Virus record (IMG/VR): IMGVR_UViG_3300009000_000052
Coordinates: 1 to 20,846 of that record
DNA: 20,846 nucleotides
Direction: 5' to 3' (one strand)
DNA from: a virus
Shown here: positions 428-18,275 of the stretch, piece by piece
Layout of the letters: the number at the start of each line of letters is the position of its first letter
Position numbering within the stretch: position 1 is the stretch's first letter
Translations under genes and position numbers: made by a program
Notes under the pieces: model-generated
What the model saw: only the letters and a program-made list of their open reading frames with translations
Databases searched by the model: none
Told to the model about the DNA's origin: nothing

Positions 428-888
428 TAGCAATACAACACGAAGGAGCAATTAAAAAATTCACTGCCTTACCAAAGGTATGGGCAGATGAAAACGGCAC
501 GCATTTAAACATCACAGACGGAGCTTCTTTTGGATTCTATCCTGTAGTAACTCCAACGTATAATAGTTCAACACAGAGCTTAGGGGACATTATGTGGGAT
601 GCTGATGCATCTGTATTCACCTATCCTGTGATTGACAAAGTATGGACACAGACTCTTGAAGAAATGAAGGCTGCTAAAGTGGCTGTATTGAAAAGTTTAT
701 ACCATGCTGAATATGAAAAAACAGATTGGTATTATATTAGATTAACAGCTACAGGAGAGGAAGTTCCGCAAAGTGTTATAGATGCAAGAGCAAATTTTAA
801 AGCAGACTGTGATGCTCGTGAGGCAGAAATAAATGCATTAACAACACAAGCAGAGGTCGCTGAATATCAACTACCAAGCTTTATGTAA
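424..888 (+). CDS. Tail-fibre assembly chaperone-like protein
   Basis: The product has 154 residues. I chose the ATG at 424 because it overlaps the upstream stop as ATGA. The ATG at 397 would add nine residues and overlap the upstream gene by 31 bases. The N-terminal half is beta-like and aromatic. The C-terminal half (about residues 78-145) is helical and carries TDWYYIRLTATGEEVP at 100-115, then an R-x-x-F-K-x-D-x-D-x-R-E-x-E-I helix. A TDWY-x-x-R segment followed by a long charged helix is typical of small phage proteins placed next to fibre genes and annotated as tail-fibre assembly or DUF4376-like proteins. It sits directly before the LamG fibre gene, which fits a folding helper for it. 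The role is inferred from pattern and position. Confidence 0.6.
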   Translation: MIAIQHEGAIKKFTALPKVWADENGTHLNITDGASFGFYPVVTPTYNSSTQSLGDIMWDADASVFTYPVIDKVWTQTLEEMKAAKVAVLKSLYHAEYEKTDWYYIRLTATGEEVPQSVIDARANFKADCDAREAEINALTTQAEVAEYQLPSFM

Positions 889-3254
889 TGGTTGGAAAGA
901 GATTAGTTAATACAGGAGGAGCTGGGGGTGCAGCAGCATTTGATGCTTTAGCCAATTTTGAAACTGTAACCTATACAGGGAATGGTGGTACACAAAAGAT
1001 AACAGGGTATATTAGAAAGGGTGCTGCTTTTAATGGGAGTAGTAGCGATATAGATTTACCATCAGGTGTACAGTCTTCTACTATGGCTGTTTCAATGTTT
1101 GTTTATTTTAATTCTACTCCCGACACAGACGTTTTGATTGAGTTTGAAAATGGATATGGAATTAATTTTTTATCTTCAGATTCAGGATATGTTTTAGCAC
1201 AATATGCAAATTCAAATGGCAGTAATGTTAAATCAAACTCTGCAATAACTACAGGACAATGGTATCATATAGCAGCAAATTTTACAAGTTCTTCTGCGGA
1301 ATTATATATAGATAAAACACAACAAACAGGAGGAACAGTAAGTAATTATGTTACTTCCGACCAAAATACAATAGGCTCAAGAAGAGCAGATGCTTTTATA
1401 CCTGCAAAAATAGACCAAGTAAGAATATTTAATACTACATTAAATCAAACACAAATAAATCAATTAGCAGATGAGGATTATACTAAAGCTACTAAATCTA
1501 CTACTGATATATTTGGAGATGGTTCAGGTGTTGCTTTATATCAGTTAGATGAAAATGCTAATGATACAGGGGGTAATATTGGTTCCCTATATACCACAAA
1601 TAGAGAACTTGATTTAGATGTTGATGGCTACACAAGTGGAACTGTTTCGGATTTAAGCGGTAATTCCTATACCGCAACTTTAAATGGAAATACAACTTAT
1701 GGCACAGATTCGAATGGAGGCGGATATTTTGATTTTGATGGTACGGGAGATTATTTAAGTGTTGACCAAACTATTGGAAGTTCTTTTAGTGGAGATTTTA
1801 CATTAGAATTTATAATTGAACCACACGAAACAGGAAATTTCACTTATGTTTATGCTAAACAAAACGCCTCTACTAATGGACTTCTTATTGGTAATTTTGG
1901 AGGTTCAAATTCGGATATTGAAGTTTATAGATACAATACAAGTGGAAGTGCCGCAATCAACGGTCAGTTTACATCTACAGGAATAACTGCTGACGAGTGG
2001 CAACATATTGCAATAGTTTTTACAGCAACAACCGCAAAATTATATAGAAATGGTTCACAAGTAAGTAGTACATTAACAGGTTCAGCAGCTACATATCCTG
2101 CTGATTTTACTGAATTTTATATAGGAGGAAATTTTTCATCTTATGATTTGAATGGTAGAGTGGGCGATTTCAGAATACATAGTTCTGCATTGTCTGATAG
2201 TCAAGTATTACAAAACTTTAACGCTTCTAAAGGTAGTTATGGATTAGCATACAACGGAACACCTACCAACGTAAACTTTTTAGGTATGGCATTCCAACCT
2301 GATTTTGTTTGGATAAAGTCAAGAGATGCAACTCCCGCCCATAAATTATTTGATTCAGTAAGAGGTATTTCAAAATTTTTATCTGCAAATGCTATAGACC
2401 AAGAATATACTTTTAGTCCTTATGGTGTAACTTCTTTTGATTCGAATGGTTTTACTATTGCTGATATTACAAATGGAGGCTATGCAGTTAACGGAGCACC
2501 TGGACAAACTTATACAGGAGCAAATGCAGACTACGTTGCTTGGTGTTGGAAAGCAGGAGGAGCAGCTTCTACAATTAGTAGTGGGGATATTTCTGCGAAT
2601 GTGAGTGCGAATACTGATATTGGATTTTCTATTGTGAAATATACAGGAAATGGTAATACAACTTACGATTCTGTTCCTCACGGATTAAATTCAACACCTG
2701 AACTTATTATCAACAAAGGTATTGATTCTTTAACACAAGGAACGAATAATTGGGTTGTAAGTTTACCTTTGCTTGGTGCGGGAAAATATGCATTTTTAAA
2801 CACAACAGGTGAAGTATTAACTTCATCAAATTATTTTGGAACATTACCCGATTCAACTTATTTTTATGTCGGTGGCGCTGCACAAGTAGGCAATGAAAAT
2901 GCAAAAAATTTTATTTCATATTGTTTCCATTCAGTTTCGGGAGCATCAAAAGTTGGGACATACGTTGGCGGTGGTGCAACAAACGTAACAGTTACACTTG
3001 ATTTTGCGCCAAGATTTGTAATGATAAAACGAACACAGAACACGGGATATGATTGGTTAATGTATGATAATGTCCGCCAATCGGGAACAAGACCATACGA
3101 TAATTCAACAACATTATATGCAAATACTTCATTAACTGAAGATTCTGACACTGCACGAAAAATTCAATTTACAGATACGGGGTTTGTTGCAAATAATAAT
3201 TGGTCGGGTACAAATGCTTCGGGTATAACTTATCTATATATTGCAATCGCATAA
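888..3254 (+). CDS. LamG-domain tail fibre / receptor-binding protein
   Basis: The product has 788 residues and starts at an ATG overlapping the previous stop (TAATG). Two concanavalin/LamG-like beta-sandwich domains are visible. The first spans about 42-190 (TTGQWYHIAANFTSSSAELYID core near 121-142), and the second about 258-445 (ADEWQHIAIVF near 368-378, then LYRNGS and IGGN). The rest, from about 455, carries three related units beginning FQPDFVWIKSRD (469-480), LNSTPELIINKG (600-611) and FAPRFVMIKRT (706-716), with YVAWCWKAGG and FISYCFHSV between them. It ends in YLYIAIA. I recognise this C-terminal layout as a common marine-phage domain (DUF7483-like). LamG domains bind glycans, so a role in adsorption to host polysaccharide is likely. 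The protein would sit on the virion surface. Confidence 0.85.
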   Translation: MVGKRLVNTGGAGGAAAFDALANFETVTYTGNGGTQKITGYIRKGAAFNGSSSDIDLPSGVQSSTMAVSMFVYFNSTPDTDVLIEFENGYGINFLSSDSGYVLAQYANSNGSNVKSNSAITTGQWYHIAANFTSSSAELYIDKTQQTGGTVSNYVTSDQNTIGSRRADAFIPAKIDQVRIFNTTLNQTQINQLADEDYTKATKSTTDIFGDGSGVALYQLDENANDTGGNIGSLYTTNRELDLDVDGYTSGTVSDLSGNSYTATLNGNTTYGTDSNGGGYFDFDGTGDYLSVDQTIGSSFSGDFTLEFIIEPHETGNFTYVYAKQNASTNGLLIGNFGGSNSDIEVYRYNTSGSAAINGQFTSTGITADEWQHIAIVFTATTAKLYRNGSQVSSTLTGSAATYPADFTEFYIGGNFSSYDLNGRVGDFRIHSSALSDSQVLQNFNASKGSYGLAYNGTPTNVNFLGMAFQPDFVWIKSRDATPAHKLFDSVRGISKFLSANAIDQEYTFSPYGVTSFDSNGFTIADITNGGYAVNGAPGQTYTGANADYVAWCWKAGGAASTISSGDISANVSANTDIGFSIVKYTGNGNTTYDSVPHGLNSTPELIINKGIDSLTQGTNNWVVSLPLLGAGKYAFLNTTGEVLTSSNYFGTLPDSTYFYVGGAAQVGNENAKNFISYCFHSVSGASKVGTYVGGGATNVTVTLDFAPRFVMIKRTQNTGYDWLMYDNVRQSGTRPYDNSTTLYANTSLTEDSDTARKIQFTDTGFVANNNWSGTNASGITYLYIAIA

Positions 3255-3281: not shown

Positions 3282-3500
3282 ATGAATTTAATACGAAAAA
3301 TATCAATTGGTCGTGATTATAAAAACGACGCAATGCATTATTCAATTGGTCAAGAAGTATTTGGAGGACATACAATATCTGAAATACTTGAAGAAGAAGA
3401 AGGATACGTAATATATATAAAGAAAAATGACGAAATATTGCCATGGAAACATTTTAATAAAAACATGGCTGTATCAATTGAATTTAATTTACAATATTAA
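3282..3500 (+). CDS. Small hypothetical phage protein
   Basis: The product has 72 residues and I do not recognise it with confidence. It begins MNLIRKISIGRDYKNDAMHY and has an acidic centre (EILEEEEG, about 34-41), followed by YVIYIKKNDEILPWKHF and a beta-like end. It has no membrane segment and no catalytic motif. The leader is almost pure A with some T (3255-3281) and has no Shine-Dalgarno sequence. The stop overlaps the next ATG as TAATG, so it is coupled to the GroES-like gene. It is the first gene after the fibre block and opens the packaging and head block. Its role could be regulatory or structural, and nothing in the sequence decides between these. Confidence 0.65.
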   Translation: MNLIRKISIGRDYKNDAMHYSIGQEVFGGHTISEILEEEEGYVIYIKKNDEILPWKHFNKNMAVSIEFNLQY

Positions 3501-4099
3501 TGAAACATACTCACGCTTATATTGTACAACCAATAGAAGGCAGATATAATAACAAAAAAAATATTGATGATAAAGAGTTAATACTTAATACATCAATAGA
3601 AGACCATAAGTTTGTAAATAGGAATGGTATCATAATTGAAACCCCTATTATCAAAGATGAATATGATCTACAAATAGGTGATGAAGTAATTATTCATCAT
3701 AATGTATTTAGAAGATACTACGATATGCGTGGTAATGAAAAAAATAGTAGAAACTATTTTGAAGAAGATAAATACTTTTGTTTTTCAGATCAAATATTTT
3801 TATACAAAAGAAGTGGTAAATGGTACACACCACCAGGTTTTTGCTTTGTAAAACCAATACATAGTTTAAATAAGCTAGATGATACCAAAGAACAGCCGCT
3901 AACAGGTGTTTTAAAGCATTTAGGAAGCGATTTAAAAAGCTTTGGGTTACAAGATAATGATTTAATAGGTTTTACACCAAACAGCGAATATGAGTTTATA
4001 ATTGACTCAGAAAAATTATATAGAGTACCACTTAATTCAATTTCAATTAAATATGAACGCAAAGGAACTGAAGTCGAATATAATCCAAGCGGGGTATAA
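3500..4099 (+). CDS. Putative double GroES-like (Cpn10-fold) phage protein
   Basis: The product has 199 residues and its two halves follow the same Cpn10-like plan. Half 1 (about 5-103) has YIVQPI at 7-12, GIIIETPI at 43-50, LQIGDEVIIHH at 57-67 and DKYFCFSDQIFLY at 90-102. Half 2 (about 113-185) has FCFVKPI at 114-120, LTGVLKHLG at 134-142, LQDNDLIGF at 150-158 and KLYRVPLNSISI at 172-183. GroES shows the same order: a first strand with R-P-L/I, G-x-V-x-x-V-G, then V-K-x-G-D-x-V-x-F, and a final E-x-D-I-L-type strand. Residues 20-40 of half 1 hold a loop with a hydrophobic LIL triplet (27-29), where GroES has its IVL mobile-loop contact with GroEL. This would be a cytoplasmic protein working with the host chaperonin. 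The motif match is what I see; the fold and function are inferred. Confidence 0.55.
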   Translation: MKHTHAYIVQPIEGRYNNKKNIDDKELILNTSIEDHKFVNRNGIIIETPIIKDEYDLQIGDEVIIHHNVFRRYYDMRGNEKNSRNYFEEDKYFCFSDQIFLYKRSGKWYTPPGFCFVKPIHSLNKLDDTKEQPLTGVLKHLGSDLKSFGLQDNDLIGFTPNSEYEFIIDSEKLYRVPLNSISIKYERKGTEVEYNPSGV

Positions 4100-4328
4100 G
4101 GCAGTACATGAGCTTATACGAGTAGCAGAAGAAGAAATTATTGTAGAAGGCGGTGATGATGAACTTGCTGCAGATCGTTTAAAGAATGCTGCTGCTACAA
4201 AAAAACTTGCAATATTCGATGCTTTTGAAATTCTTACACGCATAGAAGCCGAAAAGAATTTAATGGAAGATAAGCCCATTGAAAAGAAAGAAGCATTTGG
4301 TGGATTTGCTGAAAGAAGATCTAGATAA
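4053..4328 (+). CDS. Probable terminase small subunit
   Basis: The product has 91 residues, is all-helical in character and strongly charged. It begins MNAKELKSNIIQAGYKAVHE and contains a central ELAADRLKNAAATKKLAIFD helix (about 37-56). It ends in a basic FAERRSR tail. It lies directly before the large terminase and overlaps its start as TAATG, the usual place for the small subunit, which recognises phage DNA and regulates the motor. I chose the ATG at 4053, which overlaps the GroES-like gene by 47 bases. An ATG at 4002 is open in the same frame but would overlap by 98 bases and adds residues unlike the rest. No clear helix-turn-helix can be called by eye, so the assignment rests on size, composition and neighbours. 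Confidence 0.55.
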   Translation: MNAKELKSNIIQAGYKAVHELIRVAEEEIIVEGGDDELAADRLKNAAATKKLAIFDAFEILTRIEAEKNLMEDKPIEKKEAFGGFAERRSR

Positions 4329-6535
4329 TGTACGAACAGACATTAGTTAAAACCATAACACCAGTTAAACCTAACGTAATCAAAAGATTAAATAGGTATA
4401 ACAAATGGGAATATGGATATAATAAAGAACACGATATTATTGTTATCAGTAAAAACGGCAAGATAGGTGAGATAATAGATATTCAAGGATTGTGTATAGC
4501 ATTACCTCCTCAGCCAAAAGAAATTGAAAACAATAATAACAGATGGACTCCGCATGAGTTTCCTAAGGAACTTAAAAACGTAAAAAGTATATTTGATTGG
4601 GAAACATATCCGGATTCTTTTAAAAACAAATGGTATGCATATATTGATAGAGAATTTACCAAACGCGAAGAAGGTTATTGGTTCATTAACAAAGGTATCC
4701 CTACTTTTATTACTGGTTCTCATTATATGTACTTGCAGCACACCAAAATTGATGTTGGGAAGCCAGACTATAGGGAAGCAAACAGATTATTCTTCATATT
4801 CTGGGAAGCATGCAAGGCAGATAAAAGATGTTATGGAATGTGCTACCTCAAAAATAGACGGTCTGGGTTTAGCTTTATGGCCTCATCAGAGACTGTTAAC
4901 CAAGCTACAATTACATCAGATGCTAGATTTGGAATATTATCAAAATCCGGTGCTGATGCAAAAAAGATGTTCACCGATAAAGTGGTACCAATATCAGTCA
5001 ACTATCCGTTCTTTTTTAAACCGATACAAGATGGGATGGACAGACCTAAATCAGAATTGGCATACAGGGTACCAGCATCCAAACTCACAAAAAAGTCGAT
5101 TACGGAAACGAGTGAAAAGCAAATACTTGAGGGGCTTGATACAACAATAGACTGGAAGAATACTGGGGATAACAGTTATGATGGTGAGAAGCTTAAGTTA
5201 TTAGTACATGATGAATCAGGTAAATGGGAAAGACCTGATAACATATTAAATAACTGGAGGGTAACAAAAACAACGCTGCGTCTAGGTAGTAGGATTATAG
5301 GAAAGTGTATGATGGGATCAACATCCAATGCATTAGAAAAAGGTGGTGACAACTTCAAAAAGCTTTATTATGACTCAGACGTTACAAGACGCAACAAAAA
5401 TGGACAGACTAGCTCGGGATTATATAGTTTGTTCATACCTATGGAATGGAACTACGAAGGATACATTGATTCTTTTGGATACCCTGTCTTTGATACTCCA
5501 GAAGAACCCGTCCTTGGAAACGATGCGGACTATATCGATACCGGAGTCATAGACTTTTGGGAAAATGAAGTTGATGGATTAAAACACGATAGTGACGGTT
5601 TAAATGAATATTATCGTCAATTCCCTCGTACTGAGGAACATGCATTTCGAGACGAAGCTAAAAATAGTATATTTAATTTGACTAAAATATATGAACAGAT
5701 TGATTTTAATGAAACTGCCATAAGAGATGGTTTGGTCACTAAGGGATCGTTCTCGTGGGAAAATGGAATAAAAGACAGTAAAGTTATATTCTCGCCTAAT
5801 CCAAGTGGTAGATTTTTAGTCAGCTGGGTACCGTCTAAGAATCTGCAAAACAATGTAATAGTAAAGAATGGCATAAAGCATCCGGGTAATGAACATGTTG
5901 GTGCATTTGGATGTGACTCATATGATATATCCGGTACAACTGATGGTGTAGGTTCTAAAGGTTCACTTCACGGCCTTACTAAATTTAGTATGGAAGATGC
6001 TCCACCTAATACATTCTTTTTAGAATATGTTGCCCGACCTCAAACAGCAGAGATATTTTTTGAAGATGTGCTTATGGCATTAATATTTTATGGTATGCCA
6101 ATATTAGCAGAAAATAACAAACCTAGATTGTTATATCATTTAAAACGAAGAGGTTACAGGGGGTTTTCAATGAATAGACCTGATAAAATTTGGAATAAAC
6201 TATCTGTAACAGAGAAAGAAATAGGTGGAATACCTAATACATCTGAAGATATAAAGCAAGCTCATGCTGCTGCAATTGAAACGTATATAGACAAATATGT
6301 TGGCTATAATGAAGAAGGCAGTGGTAATATATATTTTAATAGAACATTAAATGATTGGGCAAGATTTGATATAAATAAACGAACAAAGTATGATGCAACT
6401 ATTAGTTCTGGGCTCGCTATTATGGCTTGCAATAGGCATTTATATCATCCAAAACCAAAATACGAAAAACAATCATTAGGAATACAAATAAAAAGATTTA
6501 ACAATAAAGGAATGCATTCGCAAATAATTAAATAG
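4328..6535 (+). CDS. terL: Terminase large subunit (packaging ATPase/nuclease)
   Basis: The product has 735 residues and would be the motor that cuts phage DNA and drives it through the portal. The ATPase half has a Walker A-like KNRRSGFS at 175-182. Here the Lys leads the loop and the usual G-K is G-F, a deviant form that recalls lambda terminase (KSARVGYS). A Walker B with catalytic acid, LLVHDE, lies at 291-296, and a coupling-motif-like GSTSN at 330-334. The nuclease half has GCDSYDIS with acidic residues D530 and D533, and a late acid, D689, in YDATISSG, consistent with an RNase H-type site. Length is normal for a large terminase. It ends with TAG, the only TAG stop among the complete genes, one base before the portal ATG. 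Confidence 0.87.
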   Translation: MYEQTLVKTITPVKPNVIKRLNRYNKWEYGYNKEHDIIVISKNGKIGEIIDIQGLCIALPPQPKEIENNNNRWTPHEFPKELKNVKSIFDWETYPDSFKNKWYAYIDREFTKREEGYWFINKGIPTFITGSHYMYLQHTKIDVGKPDYREANRLFFIFWEACKADKRCYGMCYLKNRRSGFSFMASSETVNQATITSDARFGILSKSGADAKKMFTDKVVPISVNYPFFFKPIQDGMDRPKSELAYRVPASKLTKKSITETSEKQILEGLDTTIDWKNTGDNSYDGEKLKLLVHDESGKWERPDNILNNWRVTKTTLRLGSRIIGKCMMGSTSNALEKGGDNFKKLYYDSDVTRRNKNGQTSSGLYSLFIPMEWNYEGYIDSFGYPVFDTPEEPVLGNDADYIDTGVIDFWENEVDGLKHDSDGLNEYYRQFPRTEEHAFRDEAKNSIFNLTKIYEQIDFNETAIRDGLVTKGSFSWENGIKDSKVIFSPNPSGRFLVSWVPSKNLQNNVIVKNGIKHPGNEHVGAFGCDSYDISGTTDGVGSKGSLHGLTKFSMEDAPPNTFFLEYVARPQTAEIFFEDVLMALIFYGMPILAENNKPRLLYHLKRRGYRGFSMNRPDKIWNKLSVTEKEIGGIPNTSEDIKQAHAAAIETYIDKYVGYNEEGSGNIYFNRTLNDWARFDINKRTKYDATISSGLAIMACNRHLYHPKPKYEKQSLGIQIKRFNNKGMHSQIIK

Positions 6536-6536
6536 C

Positions 6537-8960
6537 ATGGCTGAAACAATTTTAAAAAGTTCATTTCCAAGTCAAATAGCAAGCGATGCTGAAAAGGCTA
6601 GTTTAGATTACGGATTAGAAGTAGCTCGTGCTATTGAACACGAATGGTTCAAAAGAGATTCTGGTGCTACACGATTCTATTCTAATAGAGATGAATACCA
6701 TAGACTCAGACTATATGCAAGAGGTGAGCAGTCTGTAAAAAAATATAAAGATGAATTATCTATTAATGGTGATTTGTTTTATCTTAATTTAGATTGGAAA
6801 CCTGTACCTATCATACCAAAGTTTGTAGACATCGTTGTAAACGGTATGTCTGATAGACTATATGATGTTAAAGCTTTTTCACAAGATCCATCTTCTATAG
6901 AACAAAGAACAAAATACGTTGAATCTATTATGACAGATATGCAAACAAGAGCAATATCTGATCAAATACAAGAACAGTTAGGTATCAATGTATATAACAA
7001 TGACCCTGAAAAATTACCAGAGTCTGAAGAAGAACTATCATTACACATGCAGCTTGAATACAAGCAAGCAATTGAAATAGCGCAAGAGCAAGCTATTAAT
7101 TCTGTAATGAATGCAAATAATTATGATTTACTACAAAGAAGAGTAAATTATGATTTAACAGTTATTGGTATTGGCTGCGTTAAAAATGAATTTAATAAAT
7201 CTGAGGGTATTAGACTTAAATATGTTGACCCTGCAGATATTGTTTATTCATATACATATTCGCCTTATTTTGATGATATATATTATATAGGTGAAGTTAA
7301 AAGCGTAACAATCAATGAATTAAAACAACAGTTTCCTGAATTAACTGATGAAGATTTAAGTAACCTAACTAAGCAAGGTGTACAAACACCAGCTTCGCAT
7401 AATAGGTTTATTAATGAAGACAGTGTTTTAGATGCGAATACTATTCAAGTTTTATATTTTAATTATAAGACTTATAATAATGAAGTATTTAAAATAAAGA
7501 AGACTGCATCTGGTGCTGATAAAGCAATACCTAAGAATGATCAATTCAATCCGCCTAAAGATGACAGATCAAGATTTAGTAAAGAATCAAGATCAATTGA
7601 AGTTGTTTATGATGGTGCATTTGTTTTAGGCACAAAGAAAATGCTTAAGTGGGAGATTGCTAAAAATATGGTACGACCAAAAAGCGATACTACAAAAGCA
7701 ATGCTTAATTACCATGTCGTAGCACCTAGAATATATAAGGGTCGTATTGAATCACTTGTAAGCCGTATAACTGGTTTTGCAGATATGATTCAATTAACAC
7801 ATTTAAAACTACAACAAGTATTATCAAGAATGATACCTGATGGAGTTTATTTAGATGCTGATGGTTTAGCTGAAATTGATTTAGGTAATGGTACAAACTA
7901 TAATCCGCAAGAGGCATTGAATATGTTCTTCCAAACAGGTTCTGTTATTGGTAGATCAATGACTCAGGATGGAGACTTAAATCACGGCAAAGTGCCAATT
8001 CAAGAATTAACATCTAATGGCGGTAATAATAAAATAAGTTCGCTTATAAATACTTACAATTATTATTTACAAATGATCCGTGACGTGACAGGCTTAAATG
8101 AAGCAAGAGATGGTTCTATGCCAGATAAAAATGCTTTAGTTGGTGTGCAAAAACTTGCAGCAGCAAATTCAAATACTGCTACCCGTCATATATTACAATC
8201 AAGTTTGTATTTAACAGCTAAAACAGCTGAAGCTATTAGTTTACGTATATCAGATGTATTAGAGTTTTCGCCAACAAGAGATTCGTTTATTTCAAGTATT
8301 GGAAGATTTAATGTTGGCACATTAGAAGATATTAAAAACATGCATTTGCATGATTTTGGTATTTATATTGAATTGTCGCCAGATGAAGAAGAAAAAGGAA
8401 TGCTTGAAAACAATATACAACAAGCATTAGCTAAAGATCAAATATATCTTGAAGATGCAATTGATATTAGAGAAATTAAAAATATCAAGCTTGCTAATCA
8501 ATTATTAAAAGTACGTAGAAGAAAGAAACTACAACAAGATCAAGAATCACAGCAGCGTAATATTCAAGCACAAGCAAACGCTAATTCACAGAATACACAA
8601 GTTGCTGCGGAAATGGAGATTCAAAAGAATGAAGCTATTACAAATCAAAAAGCACAACTCATTCAAATTGAAAATGATCTTGAAATGCAAAAAATGCAGC
8701 AAGAAAAAGAACTTAAGAAAGAGCTTATGAAATATGAGTTTGATCTTAATATAGCTCTTAAAGATAAAGAGAATGAAGTGATTGACAAAAAAGAAAAGTA
8801 TAAAGAGGATCGTAAAGACGAAAGAACTCGTATACAAGCTTCACAACAATCTAAGCTTATAGAGCAAAGAAAAGATAGAAAAGGTGAACAAGAATTTGAA
8901 TCTGCAGGAAATGATACAATGGGTAGTGGATTTAATTTAGAAATGTTTGAACCTAGATAA
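6537..8960 (+). CDS. Portal protein
   Basis: The product has 807 residues. The portal ring sits at one capsid vertex and is the channel for packaging and ejection. The N-terminal region has the typical YHRLRLYARGEQSVKKYKDE (54-73), then PKFVDIVVNGMSDRLYDVKA (94-113). A helical Q/E-rich stretch (about 140-190) precedes a core with DLTVIGIGCVKNEF (206-219) and YVDPADIVYSYTYSPYFDD (229-247), a combination seen in many phage portals. The last 150 residues (about 656-790) are almost free of Gly and Pro and very rich in K, E and Q, predicting a long coiled coil. The end is SGFNLEMFEPR. Placement straight after the large terminase and before scaffold and capsid supports the call. The coiled-coil tail makes it longer than an average portal. 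Confidence 0.85.
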   Translation: MAETILKSSFPSQIASDAEKASLDYGLEVARAIEHEWFKRDSGATRFYSNRDEYHRLRLYARGEQSVKKYKDELSINGDLFYLNLDWKPVPIIPKFVDIVVNGMSDRLYDVKAFSQDPSSIEQRTKYVESIMTDMQTRAISDQIQEQLGINVYNNDPEKLPESEEELSLHMQLEYKQAIEIAQEQAINSVMNANNYDLLQRRVNYDLTVIGIGCVKNEFNKSEGIRLKYVDPADIVYSYTYSPYFDDIYYIGEVKSVTINELKQQFPELTDEDLSNLTKQGVQTPASHNRFINEDSVLDANTIQVLYFNYKTYNNEVFKIKKTASGADKAIPKNDQFNPPKDDRSRFSKESRSIEVVYDGAFVLGTKKMLKWEIAKNMVRPKSDTTKAMLNYHVVAPRIYKGRIESLVSRITGFADMIQLTHLKLQQVLSRMIPDGVYLDADGLAEIDLGNGTNYNPQEALNMFFQTGSVIGRSMTQDGDLNHGKVPIQELTSNGGNNKISSLINTYNYYLQMIRDVTGLNEARDGSMPDKNALVGVQKLAAANSNTATRHILQSSLYLTAKTAEAISLRISDVLEFSPTRDSFISSIGRFNVGTLEDIKNMHLHDFGIYIELSPDEEEKGMLENNIQQALAKDQIYLEDAIDIREIKNIKLANQLLKVRRRKKLQQDQESQQRNIQAQANANSQNTQVAAEMEIQKNEAITNQKAQLIQIENDLEMQKMQQEKELKKELMKYEFDLNIALKDKENEVIDKKEKYKEDRKDERTRIQASQQSKLIEQRKDRKGEQEFESAGNDTMGSGFNLEMFEPR

Positions 8961-11772: not shown

Positions 11773-12603
11773 ATGGCTAAGAAAAAAGAGTCTATGGAAG
11801 CTTTAGAAGCACCCGTAGCAGAAGCAGTTCAAACTGCACCACAACCAAAACAACCTATTCAACCAAAAAATGAATGGGAATTAAAAGATAGGACTTATAT
11901 TTTATTAGGTAATAAAGCGCCAATTACATATACCCTAGCTTCAAGACATCACAGTAGAAATCCATTAATGTGGTGGGATGAAGGAAAAGGTATAAGCCGA
12001 GAATTAAGATATGCTTCAAACCAAAATTCACCTTTTAAAGATGAACAAGATGGTTTTTCTACATTAAAGCATATTGTATTTAGAAATGGTTCTTTATTTG
12101 TACCAAAGTCAGACCAAGCTTTACAAAAGCTATTATCTCTGTATCATCCACAAAGAAATTTAACTTATTATGAGGTTGATGCAATTGCTGAAGCAAAAGA
12201 TGATTTAGAAGATCTTGAACTTGAAATTACAGCACTTAACCTAGCTAAAGATTTAGATATTGATCATTCTGAAGCGGTATTAAGAGTTGAGCAAGGTTCG
12301 GCTGTATCTAAAATGACATCTTCAGAAATTAGAAGAGATATATTATTATTTGCAAAACGTAATCCAGCTACATTTATTGCACTTGTTGAAGACGATAATG
12401 TACAATTAAGAAACTTTGCTATTAAAGCTGTTGAAGCTGGTATTATCAGCCTTTCTGGTGATCAAAGATCATTCCACTGGGGAAGCAATAATAAAAAGTT
12501 AATGTCAGTACCTTTTGATGAAAATCCATATTCTGCATTTGCAGCATATTTAAAAACAGATGAAGGTGTTGAGGTTTATAAATCAATAGAAAAGAAAATT
12601 TAA
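11773..12603 (+). CDS. Conserved phage structural protein following the capsid gene
   Basis: The product has 276 residues. The first 35 are Ala/Pro/Gln/Lys-rich and probably disordered. A folded domain follows, with LKDRTYILLGNKAPITYTLA (37-56), then a W-W-D-E segment, RELRYASNQNSPFKDEQDGF and KHIVFRNGSLFVPK up to about residue 116. The second half is helical and charged, with E-x-E-I-T-A-L-N-L-A-K-D-L. The pattern R-Y-A-x-N-Q-x-S-P-F-x-D-E-Q followed by I-V-F-x-x-G is one I remember from proteins next to capsid genes in several marine phage groups. The exact structural role, such as capsid decoration or head completion, is not known to me. The gene lies between two hairpins and has its own AT-rich leader. 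Confidence 0.65.
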   Translation: MAKKKESMEALEAPVAEAVQTAPQPKQPIQPKNEWELKDRTYILLGNKAPITYTLASRHHSRNPLMWWDEGKGISRELRYASNQNSPFKDEQDGFSTLKHIVFRNGSLFVPKSDQALQKLLSLYHPQRNLTYYEVDAIAEAKDDLEDLELEITALNLAKDLDIDHSEAVLRVEQGSAVSKMTSSEIRRDILLFAKRNPATFIALVEDDNVQLRNFAIKAVEAGIISLSGDQRSFHWGSNNKKLMSVPFDENPYSAFAAYLKTDEGVEVYKSIEKKI

Positions 12604-13364: not shown

Positions 13365-14255
13365 ATGGCTTTATTTACACAAACACATGAACAATATTAT
13401 GATGGCAATGATTACGGCAATTACCAATATACCGCTTTAAACGATGTTATTAATAACTTTATCATTTCTTATGTAGGAGATGATAAAATTATTAATACAG
13501 TAAAGCGAAGCGAAGTTGCATATCATGCTAGAAGAACTTTACAAGAACTTAGCTATGATACATTGCGTTCAATTAAATCGCAAGAGCTTGAAGTTCCACC
13601 ATCTCTTTCTGTTGTATTGCCACACGATTATGTGAACTACACACACATATCTTGGGTTGATGATGCTGGTATTGAGCAAGTTGTTTTACCAAATAGAATA
13701 ACTAGTTCACCTACAGCACCATTACAAGATGAAGACTACAATTATCTTTATGACCAAGATGGTAATTTACTATTAGCAAATAAATCAGTAACTGAAACAA
13801 GATTTCAAGATGGTACAGCTTATGATAATAGTTTATCAGATGTAAGCACAGACTTTTTAGAAGAAGGTTACGGATATAATGTTGATTATGGAAAGCGTTA
13901 TGGAATAAACCCTGAAGTAACTACAAAAAATGGTGCTTTTGTAATAAATTATAATAAAGGTATTATATCTTTTTCAGGTGATTTTGCAGGTAGAATTATT
14001 ACATTAAAATATATATCTGACAGCGTTGCTACAGATGAAGAAATGAAAATACATAAATTAGCGGAAGAAGCTATGTATAAAAGCATAGCTTATGCTATTA
14101 TGTCTGTAAAGCAAGGCATTCCTGAATATCAAGTTAAAAGAATACGTAAAGAAAAAATTGCTGCAACAAGAAAAGCTAAATTAAGATTAAGTAATATCAA
14201 GCTTAAAGAAATTTCGCAAATTATGCGAATTAAGTCTAAGCAAATAAAACACTAA
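13365..14255 (+). CDS. Head-tail connector / adaptor-type structural protein
   Basis: The product has 296 residues. An N-terminal helical part carries NDVINNFIISYVGDDKIINT (25-44), then VKRSEVAYHARRTLQELSYD (45-64). It is followed by a beta-rich domain with LPHDYVNYTHISWVDDAGIE (84-103). The helix set is similar to gp4/adaptor-like proteins that bind below the portal. The far C-terminus is helical and strongly basic (RKEKIAATRKAKLRLSNIKL and beyond), suggesting contact with DNA or an acidic partner. It lies between the preceding connector-like gene (three-base gap) and the stabilization-type gene (six-base gap), as in the crAss-like podovirus block I remember. Connector function is inferred. 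Confidence 0.6.
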   Translation: MALFTQTHEQYYDGNDYGNYQYTALNDVINNFIISYVGDDKIINTVKRSEVAYHARRTLQELSYDTLRSIKSQELEVPPSLSVVLPHDYVNYTHISWVDDAGIEQVVLPNRITSSPTAPLQDEDYNYLYDQDGNLLLANKSVTETRFQDGTAYDNSLSDVSTDFLEEGYGYNVDYGKRYGINPEVTTKNGAFVINYNKGIISFSGDFAGRIITLKYISDSVATDEEMKIHKLAEEAMYKSIAYAIMSVKQGIPEYQVKRIRKEKIAATRKAKLRLSNIKLKEISQIMRIKSKQIKH

Positions 14256-14261
14256 GGTATT

Positions 14262-14441
14262 ATGCCAGAAATTAAGCATGTATTTACCTCAGGTCGAATG
14301 AACAAAGACCTGGATGAAAGAGCTATACCTGAAAATGAGTATAGAGATGCTTTAAATGTGCAAGTTTCTACTTCTGATGGGAGCGATGTTGGTACTTTAC
14401 AAAATATATCTGGTAATCAACAAATATCTTTACTTGCTTAA
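14262..14441 (+). pseudogene. N-terminal fragment of an interrupted tail stabilization protein
   Basis: This open frame codes 59 residues from an ATG six bases after the previous stop, up to a TAA. It carries VFTSGRMNKDLDERAIPENE and YRDALNVQVSTSDGSDVGTL, then QNISGNQ. I recognise this set as the very conserved N-terminus of the long 'stabilization' tail protein of crAss-like and related phages. In those proteins the sequence simply continues. Here two adjacent TAA codons stop it at 14439-14444 and a third in-frame TAA follows at 14463. After that the expected continuation, VRDIQNNKIYWFISS, resumes in exactly the same frame at 14466. So this is the true start of the gene at 14565-18275, cut off by nonsense codons. 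Whether it is a defect, an assembly artefact or a separately made peptide cannot be told from sequence. Confidence 0.7.
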
Positions 14442-14465
14442 TAATATAGCAAAACAATTGGATAA
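14439..14465 (+). other. Cluster of three in-frame TAA codons inside a conserved reading frame
   Basis: In the frame set by the ATG at 14262, codons read GCT TAA TAA TAT AGC AAA ACA ATT GGA TAA GTA. Recognisable family sequence lies on both sides in the same frame (the GNQQISLLA side and the VRDIQNNKIYW side). The +1 and +2 frames across this stretch also hit stops, so a single frameshift does not bridge it. TAA is the normal stop of nearly every other gene here. Confidence 0.85.
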
Positions 14466-14564
14466 GTAAGAGATATACAAAATAATAAAATATATTGGTT
14501 CATATCATCTGAAGGCAAAAGTATTATTGCTGAATATGATGAAGCTACAAATTTAACAGTACCT

Positions 14565-17500
14565 GTGCTTGTTGATGTGTATAGCATTTTAAATTTTAGT
14601 GATCAATATTTAATTACAGGTGTAAACATAATAGACGGTTTATTATTTTTTACTGATAATCAAACTGAGCCTAAAAAAGTAAACATAGAAAAATTTAAGG
14701 CTGGGTCATCAAACTTTAGCAGCCATACACAAGTTTATGGAAGAAATTTTGTTGAAGGTGATATTACTGTTATAAAACAAAAGCCATCCAACGCACCACA
14801 AATAGCATTAGCAGATAAAATTGGTAGTGATAGCGTTGAATCCTCTGCATTTTTTAATTTTTCAAAAAACAATGGGGCTAACGCAGTAGAAGTTGGTGAT
14901 TCATATACTATAAATATACTTACTACAGATAGAGATTGGAAAGTTGGTGATATATTAGTATTTGAATATGAACAAAATGCAGGCCAGTTTAGTACTAATT
15001 GGGATCCAATTGAAATAAAAGGTTTAATTACTTTTTATAATGGTGGTAGCACCGTTACTATTGAAATTGTAACTGCATCAGAAAATTTTGCAAATGAAGC
15101 TGCTCAATATAGTATTATTAAAGAGCAACCAAATCCGTTATTTGAACTTAAATTTCCTAGGTTTGGGTATAGATGGAAATATGAAGATGGAGAATATTCT
15201 GTATTTTCACCATTTTCTGAAATAGCATTTTTACCAGGTGATATTAAATATAATGCTAAAGACGGGTATAATGAGGGCATGATTAATACTGTTAGAAGAA
15301 TTAATCTTTATGGCTTTGATGATGCACCTGATAATGTAGAAGAGGTTGAAATACTATATAAAGAATCAAACAACAATAATGTATATACTGTAGAGTCTAT
15401 TAAAAAAGAAGAATTAACTTCTTATAATATAGATTCTGAAATTATATATAAAGTAGTTGAAAATAATCAATTACTTAGAGCTTGGGATAATGTACCTAAA
15501 AAAGCAAAAGCACAGGAAATTACAGCAAATAGATTAATGTTTGGTAATTATACTCAAGGGTATAATATAGAAAATGAACCAGATGTTGCTAGTAGAATAA
15601 TTTCAAGAAATGATTCGGGTGCTTCTATAAAAACTGATAGAACATATCAAATAGGTACTGTATTTGAAGACAAATACGGAAGACAATCGCCAGTTATAGC
15701 AAAACAATCTGGTGTTATACAATTAGATAGATCTGCTTCAGATAAAAAAAATAGTATAGCTGTTAAAGGAATAGGATCAGCGCCAAGCTGGGCTTCAAAG
15801 TTTAAATATTATGTAAAAGAAACATCTGCTCCATATTATAATGTTCTTGTAGATAAATATTATTTAAATAAAGATGAACCAAATTCCATATGGTTTTCTT
15901 TGCCATCATCTGAACGCAATAAAATAACCGAAGATACATATTTAATATTAAAGAAAAAGCATGGTGCAGATGTAGCTGTAGATGATACTACGACAAAATA
16001 TAAAATATTAGATATTGATAATGAAGCTCCTAACTTTTTAACTGATAAGTTTCAAAGTAAAGGACAAATTAAATTAACAAATGTTACAACAAATCTTGCA
16101 TCTAATTCAAGTTTAATTGAGGCAGATATTCAGCCCAATGAAACGCTTGAAGCAACAATTGCTGCGGGTTCTAAAATAAGACTTGTTGATGCTGGTGGAG
16201 ATAGCGATATTTATACTGTTTCAAATGTAACTTTTGAAGATACTGATGCTGATGATAAGTCAGATACAATATCTTTAACTATAAATGAAATTTTTAATGA
16301 AACTGATGTAAATAAGTTTTCTTCTTTATCTAATTATAATATTGTTTTTGGTGAAGTTGAAACAAAGGTATCTCCTGAATTTAAAAATAGATTTTTTATA
16401 AAGCTTCGTATTGACTCTTTATTAAAACAAAATATTGTTAATGCAGTATCAATTAAAACTGATAATACAAGTGAGTATAGAATAATATCAAGCGAAACAA
16501 TACTTGGGGATACTTATACTAATATAAACTCAGGGGGAGGGGCAAATTGTTCCGGTGAAAATAAAGGATATTATTGGCCAGGACCTGGTACTGCAAATGA
16601 ACCTACTGGATTACAAACAGCTATGGCTACCGGTAGTAATATAATAAAAATACGCAGAACTGGGCAAGCATGGAAAGATAAAAATAGTAAATTTGATGAC
16701 TTTGCTGAATTTTTAGATGCGGCTGGTACTAAAATAAGATTTGAATCTGACCCTAATGCTAAAACATATGAAATTCAGTCTTCATTAAGAACCGATGGAA
16801 ACCATGGGTTTAATAATTTCTGGGGAAATAAAATAGATGAAGATATATGTAATTATTGGGTTCAATGGGAAATTAAATTAGATAATAATATTGATTTTAC
16901 ACCCAATATAACAGCATTAGATAAAAGAATATACATACTTGATAATATAATAAACGAAGAAGAAAATCAGTTATCTGTAAATTCGCCAATAATATTTGAA
17001 ACAGAACCAGAAGAAGTTGCTGATTTAGATTTATATTATGAAACTGAAAATTCTTATGATATTACACAATGGAATACAGAGCAAGAATTAAAATGGTTTA
17101 ATTGCTTTTCATTTGGTAATGGTGTTGAATCTAATAGAATACGTGACGATTTTAATGGTGTTACCATGGATAAAGGTGTTCGTGTTAGCTCTGTAATTGC
17201 GGAACAATTTAAAGAAGAACATAAGAAAAATACTATTATATTTTCTGGCATATACAATAGTATCAATGGTATAAACCAAACAAATCAATTTAATCAAGCA
17301 GAAGCAATAACAAAAGATATTAATCCAGAATATGGATCAATACAAAAGCTTCATGCAAGAGATGGTGATTTAATTGCATTAACTGAAGATAAAGTTTTAG
17401 GTATATCAGCTGGCAAAGACGTTTTATTTAATGCTGATGGAAATCCTAATTTAATATCTTCTACAAATGTATTAGGTTATGTAAGACCTTATGCTGGTGA

Positions 17501-18275
17501 GTTTGGTATATCCAATAATCCTGAGTCATTTGCAACATACGGTAATAGATTTTATTTTACTGATAAAGCTAGAAATGCTGTATTAAGATTTTCAGGAGGC
17601 ATTGGGGGTGGTGATGGTTTGACAGTCATATCTAATTATGGCATGTCTGATTATTTTAAAGATTTATTGTCTACAAATTCTGGTGCATTTATTGGTAGCT
17701 TTGATGAAGATTTAGGTACTTATAATATATCTATAAATGATCAAACAGTAGGTTTTGATGAAATGGTAAAAGGTTGGACATCTCGTTATAGCTTTTTACC
17801 AGAAAATGGTATAAGCTTAAATGCTAAATATTATACATTTAAAAATGGAAATCTTTGGTTGCATAACGTAGAAAGTCGTGCTAAAAATAATTTTTATAAT
17901 GGACAGTATTCATCTAAAGTAACTTTCTTTTTTAATCAAGAATCTTCTGTAGTTAAAAAATTTAAAACATTAGGTTATGAAGGTGATGATGGTTGGGTTG
18001 CTAATTATGTAAAAACAAACTTACAAGATGGATCTGTAACAAAGTTTATTGATAAAGAAGGTAAGTTTTTTAATTATATAAAAGGTGATAAAACATATTT
18101 AGATGTTCCTAATAAAACAACAAATTGGGATAGTAAACAATTTTCAAGCCAAGGTATTGGGAAAACAACTGCGCTTTCAGGCGATTTAGATATTACAATA
18201 GCAATAATGGATGCTTATATAGTAAATACAATAATAGAATGGCGTGGAGACACGTATGAATGTGAACAAATATAA
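14565..18275 (+). CDS. Tail stabilization-type protein, main portion (5' end interrupted)
   Basis: This is the longest gene, with 1,236 residues from a GTG at 14565. If the upstream stops were absent it would run from 14262 as about 1,337 residues. Early motifs ITGVNIIDGLLFFTDNQTEP (17-36) and KKVNIEKF are strongly conserved in the crAss-like stabilization/tail protein I recall. Later come NLYGFDDAPDNVEEVEILYK, IGTVFEDKYGRQSPV and GDLIALTEDKVLGISAGKD. A propeller-like stretch of short beta repeats follows, with FATYGNRFYFTDKARNAV. It ends in IEWRGDTYECEQI. The protein would form the lower tail or muzzle of a short-tailed virion. Homology extends upstream of the GTG to 14466, but no ATG, GTG or TTG is in frame there, so GTG is only the first ordinary start. 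Codons are very AT-rich. Confidence 0.75.
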   Translation: MLVDVYSILNFSDQYLITGVNIIDGLLFFTDNQTEPKKVNIEKFKAGSSNFSSHTQVYGRNFVEGDITVIKQKPSNAPQIALADKIGSDSVESSAFFNFSKNNGANAVEVGDSYTINILTTDRDWKVGDILVFEYEQNAGQFSTNWDPIEIKGLITFYNGGSTVTIEIVTASENFANEAAQYSIIKEQPNPLFELKFPRFGYRWKYEDGEYSVFSPFSEIAFLPGDIKYNAKDGYNEGMINTVRRINLYGFDDAPDNVEEVEILYKESNNNNVYTVESIKKEELTSYNIDSEIIYKVVENNQLLRAWDNVPKKAKAQEITANRLMFGNYTQGYNIENEPDVASRIISRNDSGASIKTDRTYQIGTVFEDKYGRQSPVIAKQSGVIQLDRSASDKKNSIAVKGIGSAPSWASKFKYYVKETSAPYYNVLVDKYYLNKDEPNSIWFSLPSSERNKITEDTYLILKKKHGADVAVDDTTTKYKILDIDNEAPNFLTDKFQSKGQIKLTNVTTNLASNSSLIEADIQPNETLEATIAAGSKIRLVDAGGDSDIYTVSNVTFEDTDADDKSDTISLTINEIFNETDVNKFSSLSNYNIVFGEVETKVSPEFKNRFFIKLRIDSLLKQNIVNAVSIKTDNTSEYRIISSETILGDTYTNINSGGGANCSGENKGYYWPGPGTANEPTGLQTAMATGSNIIKIRRTGQAWKDKNSKFDDFAEFLDAAGTKIRFESDPNAKTYEIQSSLRTDGNHGFNNFWGNKIDEDICNYWVQWEIKLDNNIDFTPNITALDKRIYILDNIINEEENQLSVNSPIIFETEPEEVADLDLYYETENSYDITQWNTEQELKWFNCFSFGNGVESNRIRDDFNGVTMDKGVRVSSVIAEQFKEEHKKNTIIFSGIYNSINGINQTNQFNQAEAITKDINPEYGSIQKLHARDGDLIALTEDKVLGISAGKDVLFNADGNPNLISSTNVLGYVRPYAGEFGISNNPESFATYGNRFYFTDKARNAVLRFSGGIGGGDGLTVISNYGMSDYFKDLLSTNSGAFIGSFDEDLGTYNISINDQTVGFDEMVKGWTSRYSFLPENGISLNAKYYTFKNGNLWLHNVESRAKNNFYNGQYSSKVTFFFNQESSVVKKFKTLGYEGDDGWVANYVKTNLQDGSVTKFIDKEGKFFNYIKGDKTYLDVPNKTTNWDSKQFSSQGIGKTTALSGDLDITIAIMDAYIVNTIIEWRGDTYECEQI

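Follow-up and report, generated by a model that had tools for sequence, protein, structure and literature searches.

Three clustered in-frame stop codons in a crAss-like muzzle protein gene on a metagenomic phage fragment

The locus and the identity of the interrupted gene

The window analyzed here is a whole stretch of viral DNA of 20,846 nucleotides, a metagenomic fragment held in IMG/VR (IMGVR_UViG_3300009000_000052). One of its genes opens with an ATG at 14262 on the forward strand and is interrupted by three in-frame TAA codons that lie within 27 bases (Table 1). The same frame is open again from 14466 up to the final TAA, which ends at 18275, and 14262-18275 thus amounts to 1338 codons, with all four stops, three internal and one final, included in the count. 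The original prediction had described three in-frame TAA codons in a conserved tail gene with no change of frame, and its coordinates proved exact. The remaining genes of the window are uninterrupted. By our own arithmetic, the chance that three stops placed at random all land in a run of 9 out of about 1337 codons is near 1e-4, so that the cluster points to one local event or local problem rather than to general decay of the gene.

Table 1. Coordinates of the features at and around the interrupted gene (positions in the window)
Feature	Position	Strand	Details
Virion structural protein, upstream neighbor, intact	13365..14255	+	PHROG 13977
N-terminal piece of the muzzle gene	14262..14438	+	59 codons, ATG start; PHROG 14478, E 2.7e-16; PF25731 crAss_MUZ
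Mosaic breakpoint	14303..14331	.	Identity to IMGVR_UViG_3300023110_000034 about 94% upstream, about 75% just downstream, about 80% beyond
AT-rich low point	14396..14495	.	19% G+C over 100 nt; lowest 0.3% of the contig
Tandem in-frame TAA TAA	14439..14444	+	Codons 60-61, in the length-variable loop
Third in-frame TAA	14463..14465	+	Codon 68, directly 3' of invariant Gly67
Bridge	14466..14564	+	33 open codons between the last stop and the earliest candidate canonical start, GTG 14565
Remainder of the muzzle gene, open	14565..18275	+	Listed as a GTG-start ORF, 1236 aa; PHROG 14478, E 1.7e-118; PF25729 crAss_MUZ_C

The N-terminal and downstream parts belong to one gene, as had been proposed, because both match PHROG 14478 and the crAss_MUZ or crAss_MUZ_C family, and in relatives the two are read as a single frame. 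The N-terminal piece aligns with profile positions 7-54 of Pfam PF25731, crAss_MUZ (E 4.4e-08; 32.1 bits against a curated cut-off of 27), and the C-terminal part scores 40.1 bits against PF25729, crAss_MUZ_C, for which the cut-off is also 27. On this homology the interrupted gene is a crAss-like (Crassvirales-type) muzzle protein gene. For this conserved tail gene, earlier likened to stabilization proteins, muzzle protein is the better name. With three TAA codons the gene does not form the one continuous reading frame expected of a crAss_MUZ member, and we class it by homology as an interrupted member, with no demonstrated function implied. A search of the PDB by sequence with the muzzle gene gave no match.

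The muzzle protein of PhiCrAss001, gp44, is a hexamer at the tail tip and comprises five domains, among them a ring-joining domain and a seven-bladed beta-propeller (PMC10172136). Both halves of the interrupted gene fall in the family of gp44 (PF25731 / PF25729), but in the present record, unlike gp44, three of the first 68 codons are in-frame TAA. The gene order upstream is that of the cultured Cellulophaga phage phi38:1, in which the homologue of the interrupted gene, the virion structural protein gp097 (33% identity over the matched part), is a single intact CDS of 3,975 nt, unlike the gene described here.

Relatives, loop structure and constraint

The muzzle gene is interrupted in none of 89 related loci, in which tblastn revealed no stop and no change of frame. 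A family search likewise returned every one of its best 80 loci uninterrupted in this gene, although these are the best-scoring loci and a weaker interrupted homologue could have escaped. The alignment of homologues across the position, which had been put forward as a check, was run, and it places three relatives, L002, L003 and L004, whose proteins are 65-80% identical, in a gap-free alignment with one open frame across the stop patch. Among 354 copies of four neighboring genes only one real interruption was encountered, a frameshift in locus L049 (about 2743-2756) in the homologue of the window gene at 11773-12603. What looked like two stops in the major capsid gene (L021 and L037) were natural gene ends. 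By these sequence comparisons the interrupted muzzle is an exception in its family, and such defects are rare in the compared set.

A separate arrangement is seen in the Maribacter phage Panino (L012, 3422-7335), where the CDS annotated for the muzzle homologue is shorter, 3422-6262, and the match runs on into a separate hypothetical protein at 6373-7335 in another frame. This may be either a natural split or a sequencing error in the genome of the isolate.

Of 82 aligned homologues, 68 carry insertions of up to 22 residues that the alignment puts after codon 57, and no other site among the first 160 residues varies as much in length. The variable site comprises codons 57-61 (14430-14444) and lies just before the first predicted sheet, and the first two stops fall inside it. 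Gly67 is invariant in all 82 homologues and is kept in frame here between the second and third stops, while codon 68, the third stop, is most often Ser in relatives. A structural model of the first 330 residues of the L002 protein contains strands at 64-71, 76-82, 87-93 and 98-105, with per-block pLDDT values of about 87-92 for this sheet and low confidence for the first 60 residues. Of the four strands of this predicted sheet, the first includes codon 68, and the bridge encodes the end of strand 1, strands 2 and 3, and the start of strand 4. In the model this sheet (64-105) would be compatible with a first blade of a beta-propeller; several propellers were among the top Foldseek matches, all of them weak and none below E 0.001.

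It had also been suggested that the stops were made by a paired insertion and deletion together with one substitution. A one-base shift in the patch does put a short conserved piece in register with L002 and L003, but the best shift gains 7 matches against the three relatives, shuffled patches gain 7.1 on average and 156 of 300 reach the same value, while intact relatives set against each other gain 2-6. Moreover, Ile66-Gly67 is conserved in frame 0 with no shift needed. The proposal was not confirmed and now looks scarcely probable. Each stop could have arisen by a single substitution, or the first two by a paired indel.

The sequence on either side of the stops has the character of a gene under normal constraint. 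Of the 22 near-invariant residues in codons 1-55, the N-terminal piece has retained 21, and its pN/pS against L002 is 0.11, compared with 0.23-0.24 downstream. The bridge has a pN/pS of 0.59 against L002, where pairs of intact genes give 0.40-0.76, and its amino-acid identity to relatives is 58-64%, against 58-67% among the intact relatives themselves; polarized parsimony assigns three non-synonymous changes in it to the window branch and three to that of L002, all of these being selection tests of limited power on so short a segment. Codons 69-105 stand at the 51st percentile of homologue scores and retain all five near-invariant residues. Judged from sequence, neither the flanks nor the bridge is decaying, and the lack of relaxation in the bridge fits a very recent event or a sequence error.

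These observations bear directly on the idea of a genuine split gene, in which a 59-residue N-terminal peptide and a large muzzle started internally would be separated by a spacer free to gather stops. A stop cluster in one spacer between conserved flanks is the pattern expected of such a split, and GTG codons are available at 14565 and 14577. The region 14466-14564, however, contains no ATG, GTG or TTG in frame and yet is conserved as in intact relatives; the first in-frame candidates after the stops are those two GTG codons, and the first ATG comes only at 15279. GTG 14565 lacks the A/T-rich leader that precedes most other starts in the window, and a start there would drop most of the predicted first sheet, which would then be absent from both products. 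Since the bridge is unrelaxed and without a canonical start, the evidence speaks against a gene split long ago and started internally, and against the weak internal start entertained originally. Neither a second start signal nor a relaxed spacer, as two cistrons would call for, was found, and none of the 89 homologues is split here. Such a split is accordingly considered unlikely.

Origin of the stops

The frame is identical on either side of the stops and the coding signal is back at once after the last of them, as would be seen if recoding (readthrough, TAA reassignment or bypassing) or an event at the RNA level joined both parts. Against this, tandem TAA is a strong terminator, and readthrough of such a pair and then of a third TAA is very unlikely. 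TAA is also the usual terminator in the window, ending 12 of the 14 other listed genes, so that it is not reassigned; a reassigned codon would not be used to end genes and would occur often in frame elsewhere, and no other gene here is interrupted. There is no insertion relative to L002-L004, so neither an intron nor a bypass gap is needed. Searches for tRNA genes found none in the window or in the loci of 18 relatives, no Rfam family was matched, and the RNA fold is no stronger than that of shuffled sequences (z -0.43). Stop readthrough, which the original prediction had listed, is thereby disfavored, and recoding of any of these kinds is very improbable.

A core module that spans about 3.25 to 14.30 kb is some 94% identical to L002 (IMGVR_UViG_3300023110_000034), and outside it the identity is about 70-85%. 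A second contig, L105 (3300023108_000528), is likewise about 94% identical in DNA to the window in the core module, and both contigs have the gene order of the window. The muzzle gene is intact in L002, and in L105 it is intact as far as the contig reaches. From the breakpoint on, the muzzle gene of the window is only about 80% identical to that of L002, and the stops lie about 110-160 nt past this step. Such a breakpoint could be read as a chimeric join, but a second sharp drop in identity is found at about 3207-3250, the other end of the 11-kb core, and the symmetric boundaries suggest natural mosaicism of core against host-contact modules rather than chimeric assembly. In the diverged module upstream of the core, the gene at 888-3254 encodes a large protein that carries Laminin_G_3 and DUF7483 domains and is probably a fiber or adhesin. 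The stops further coincide with the AT-rich low point, although its low G+C content owes partly to the TAA codons themselves.

Taken together, the interruption is real in the record but is most likely not a biological feature. The preferred explanation, to which we give a probability of roughly 55%, is that the stops arose as an error of consensus or assembly in this variable, AT-rich loop near a mosaic breakpoint, and it is the placing of the error in the consensus that we infer. On this explanation, strain variants of an AT-rich, length-variable loop would be hard to assemble, the consensus would fail there, and the living phage would make a single unbroken muzzle of about 1,337 residues. 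Such an error agrees with the absence of interruption from all of the related loci and from phi38:1 gp097, with the normal constraint on flanks and bridge and the retention of Gly67 in frame, and with the position of the stops, which lie near a breakpoint, in the loop that varies most in length and in a stretch among the lowest 0.3% for G+C content, on a metagenomic fragment. It sits less easily with the rest of the 20.8-kb window, which is intact and shows that the contig is not generally error-rich, or with the steps at both ends of the core (about 3.2 and 14.3 kb), which look like natural mosaicism and not like a chimera. In addition, three clustered stops with no frame shift rarely arise in short-read assemblies.

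A real and very recent nonsense lesion is a tentative alternative to such an error. The sequenced copies would then be defective, either dead or helper-dependent, and the muzzle gene a fresh null allele. The stops are, after all, present in the consensus, their clustering is compatible with a single mutational event, and the unrelaxed bridge demands only that the event be recent. A 14-nt sequence, TATAGCAAAACAAT, occurs identically in the stop patch (14445-14458) and further along the same gene (15695-15708), and this could be a weak hint of a template switch, but identity of this length is reached by about 4% of random 40-nt stretches. A broken essential tail gene would, moreover, not persist as the majority in a population, and the gene is intact in L105, the nearest other contig with a related allele. 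No other record with the patch was found: a search of IMG/VR for strain-level siblings yielded none for the stop patch or for a degenerate version of it, and phage records searched at the nucleotide level with the surrounding region gave no match. The bridge sequence was found by the IMG/VR search only in the contig of L004. An assembly patch and a real defect, both among the options first listed, are the two that are still live.

Meaning for the muzzle

In crAss-like phages the muzzle protein is the hexamer that plugs the tip of the tail. If the stops are an error, the lesson is that clustered stops in a variable loop of a structural gene from an uncultured phage are not to be equated with recoding unless reads are at hand. 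The analysis also yielded, as useful by-products, the identification of a crAss-like muzzle, a loop of variable length just ahead of the first sheet predicted in it, and an abrupt mosaic boundary at the gene's start. If instead the stops are real, none of the other muzzle loci, out of 90 compared, would share such an interruption. Should they be both real and stable, which we regard as improbable, the muzzle would be assembled from two polypeptides, with a separate 59-residue ring-joining N-terminus and the rest made via a non-canonical start or inefficient readthrough. Real stops would pose the question of how two chains make up a plug at the tail tip.
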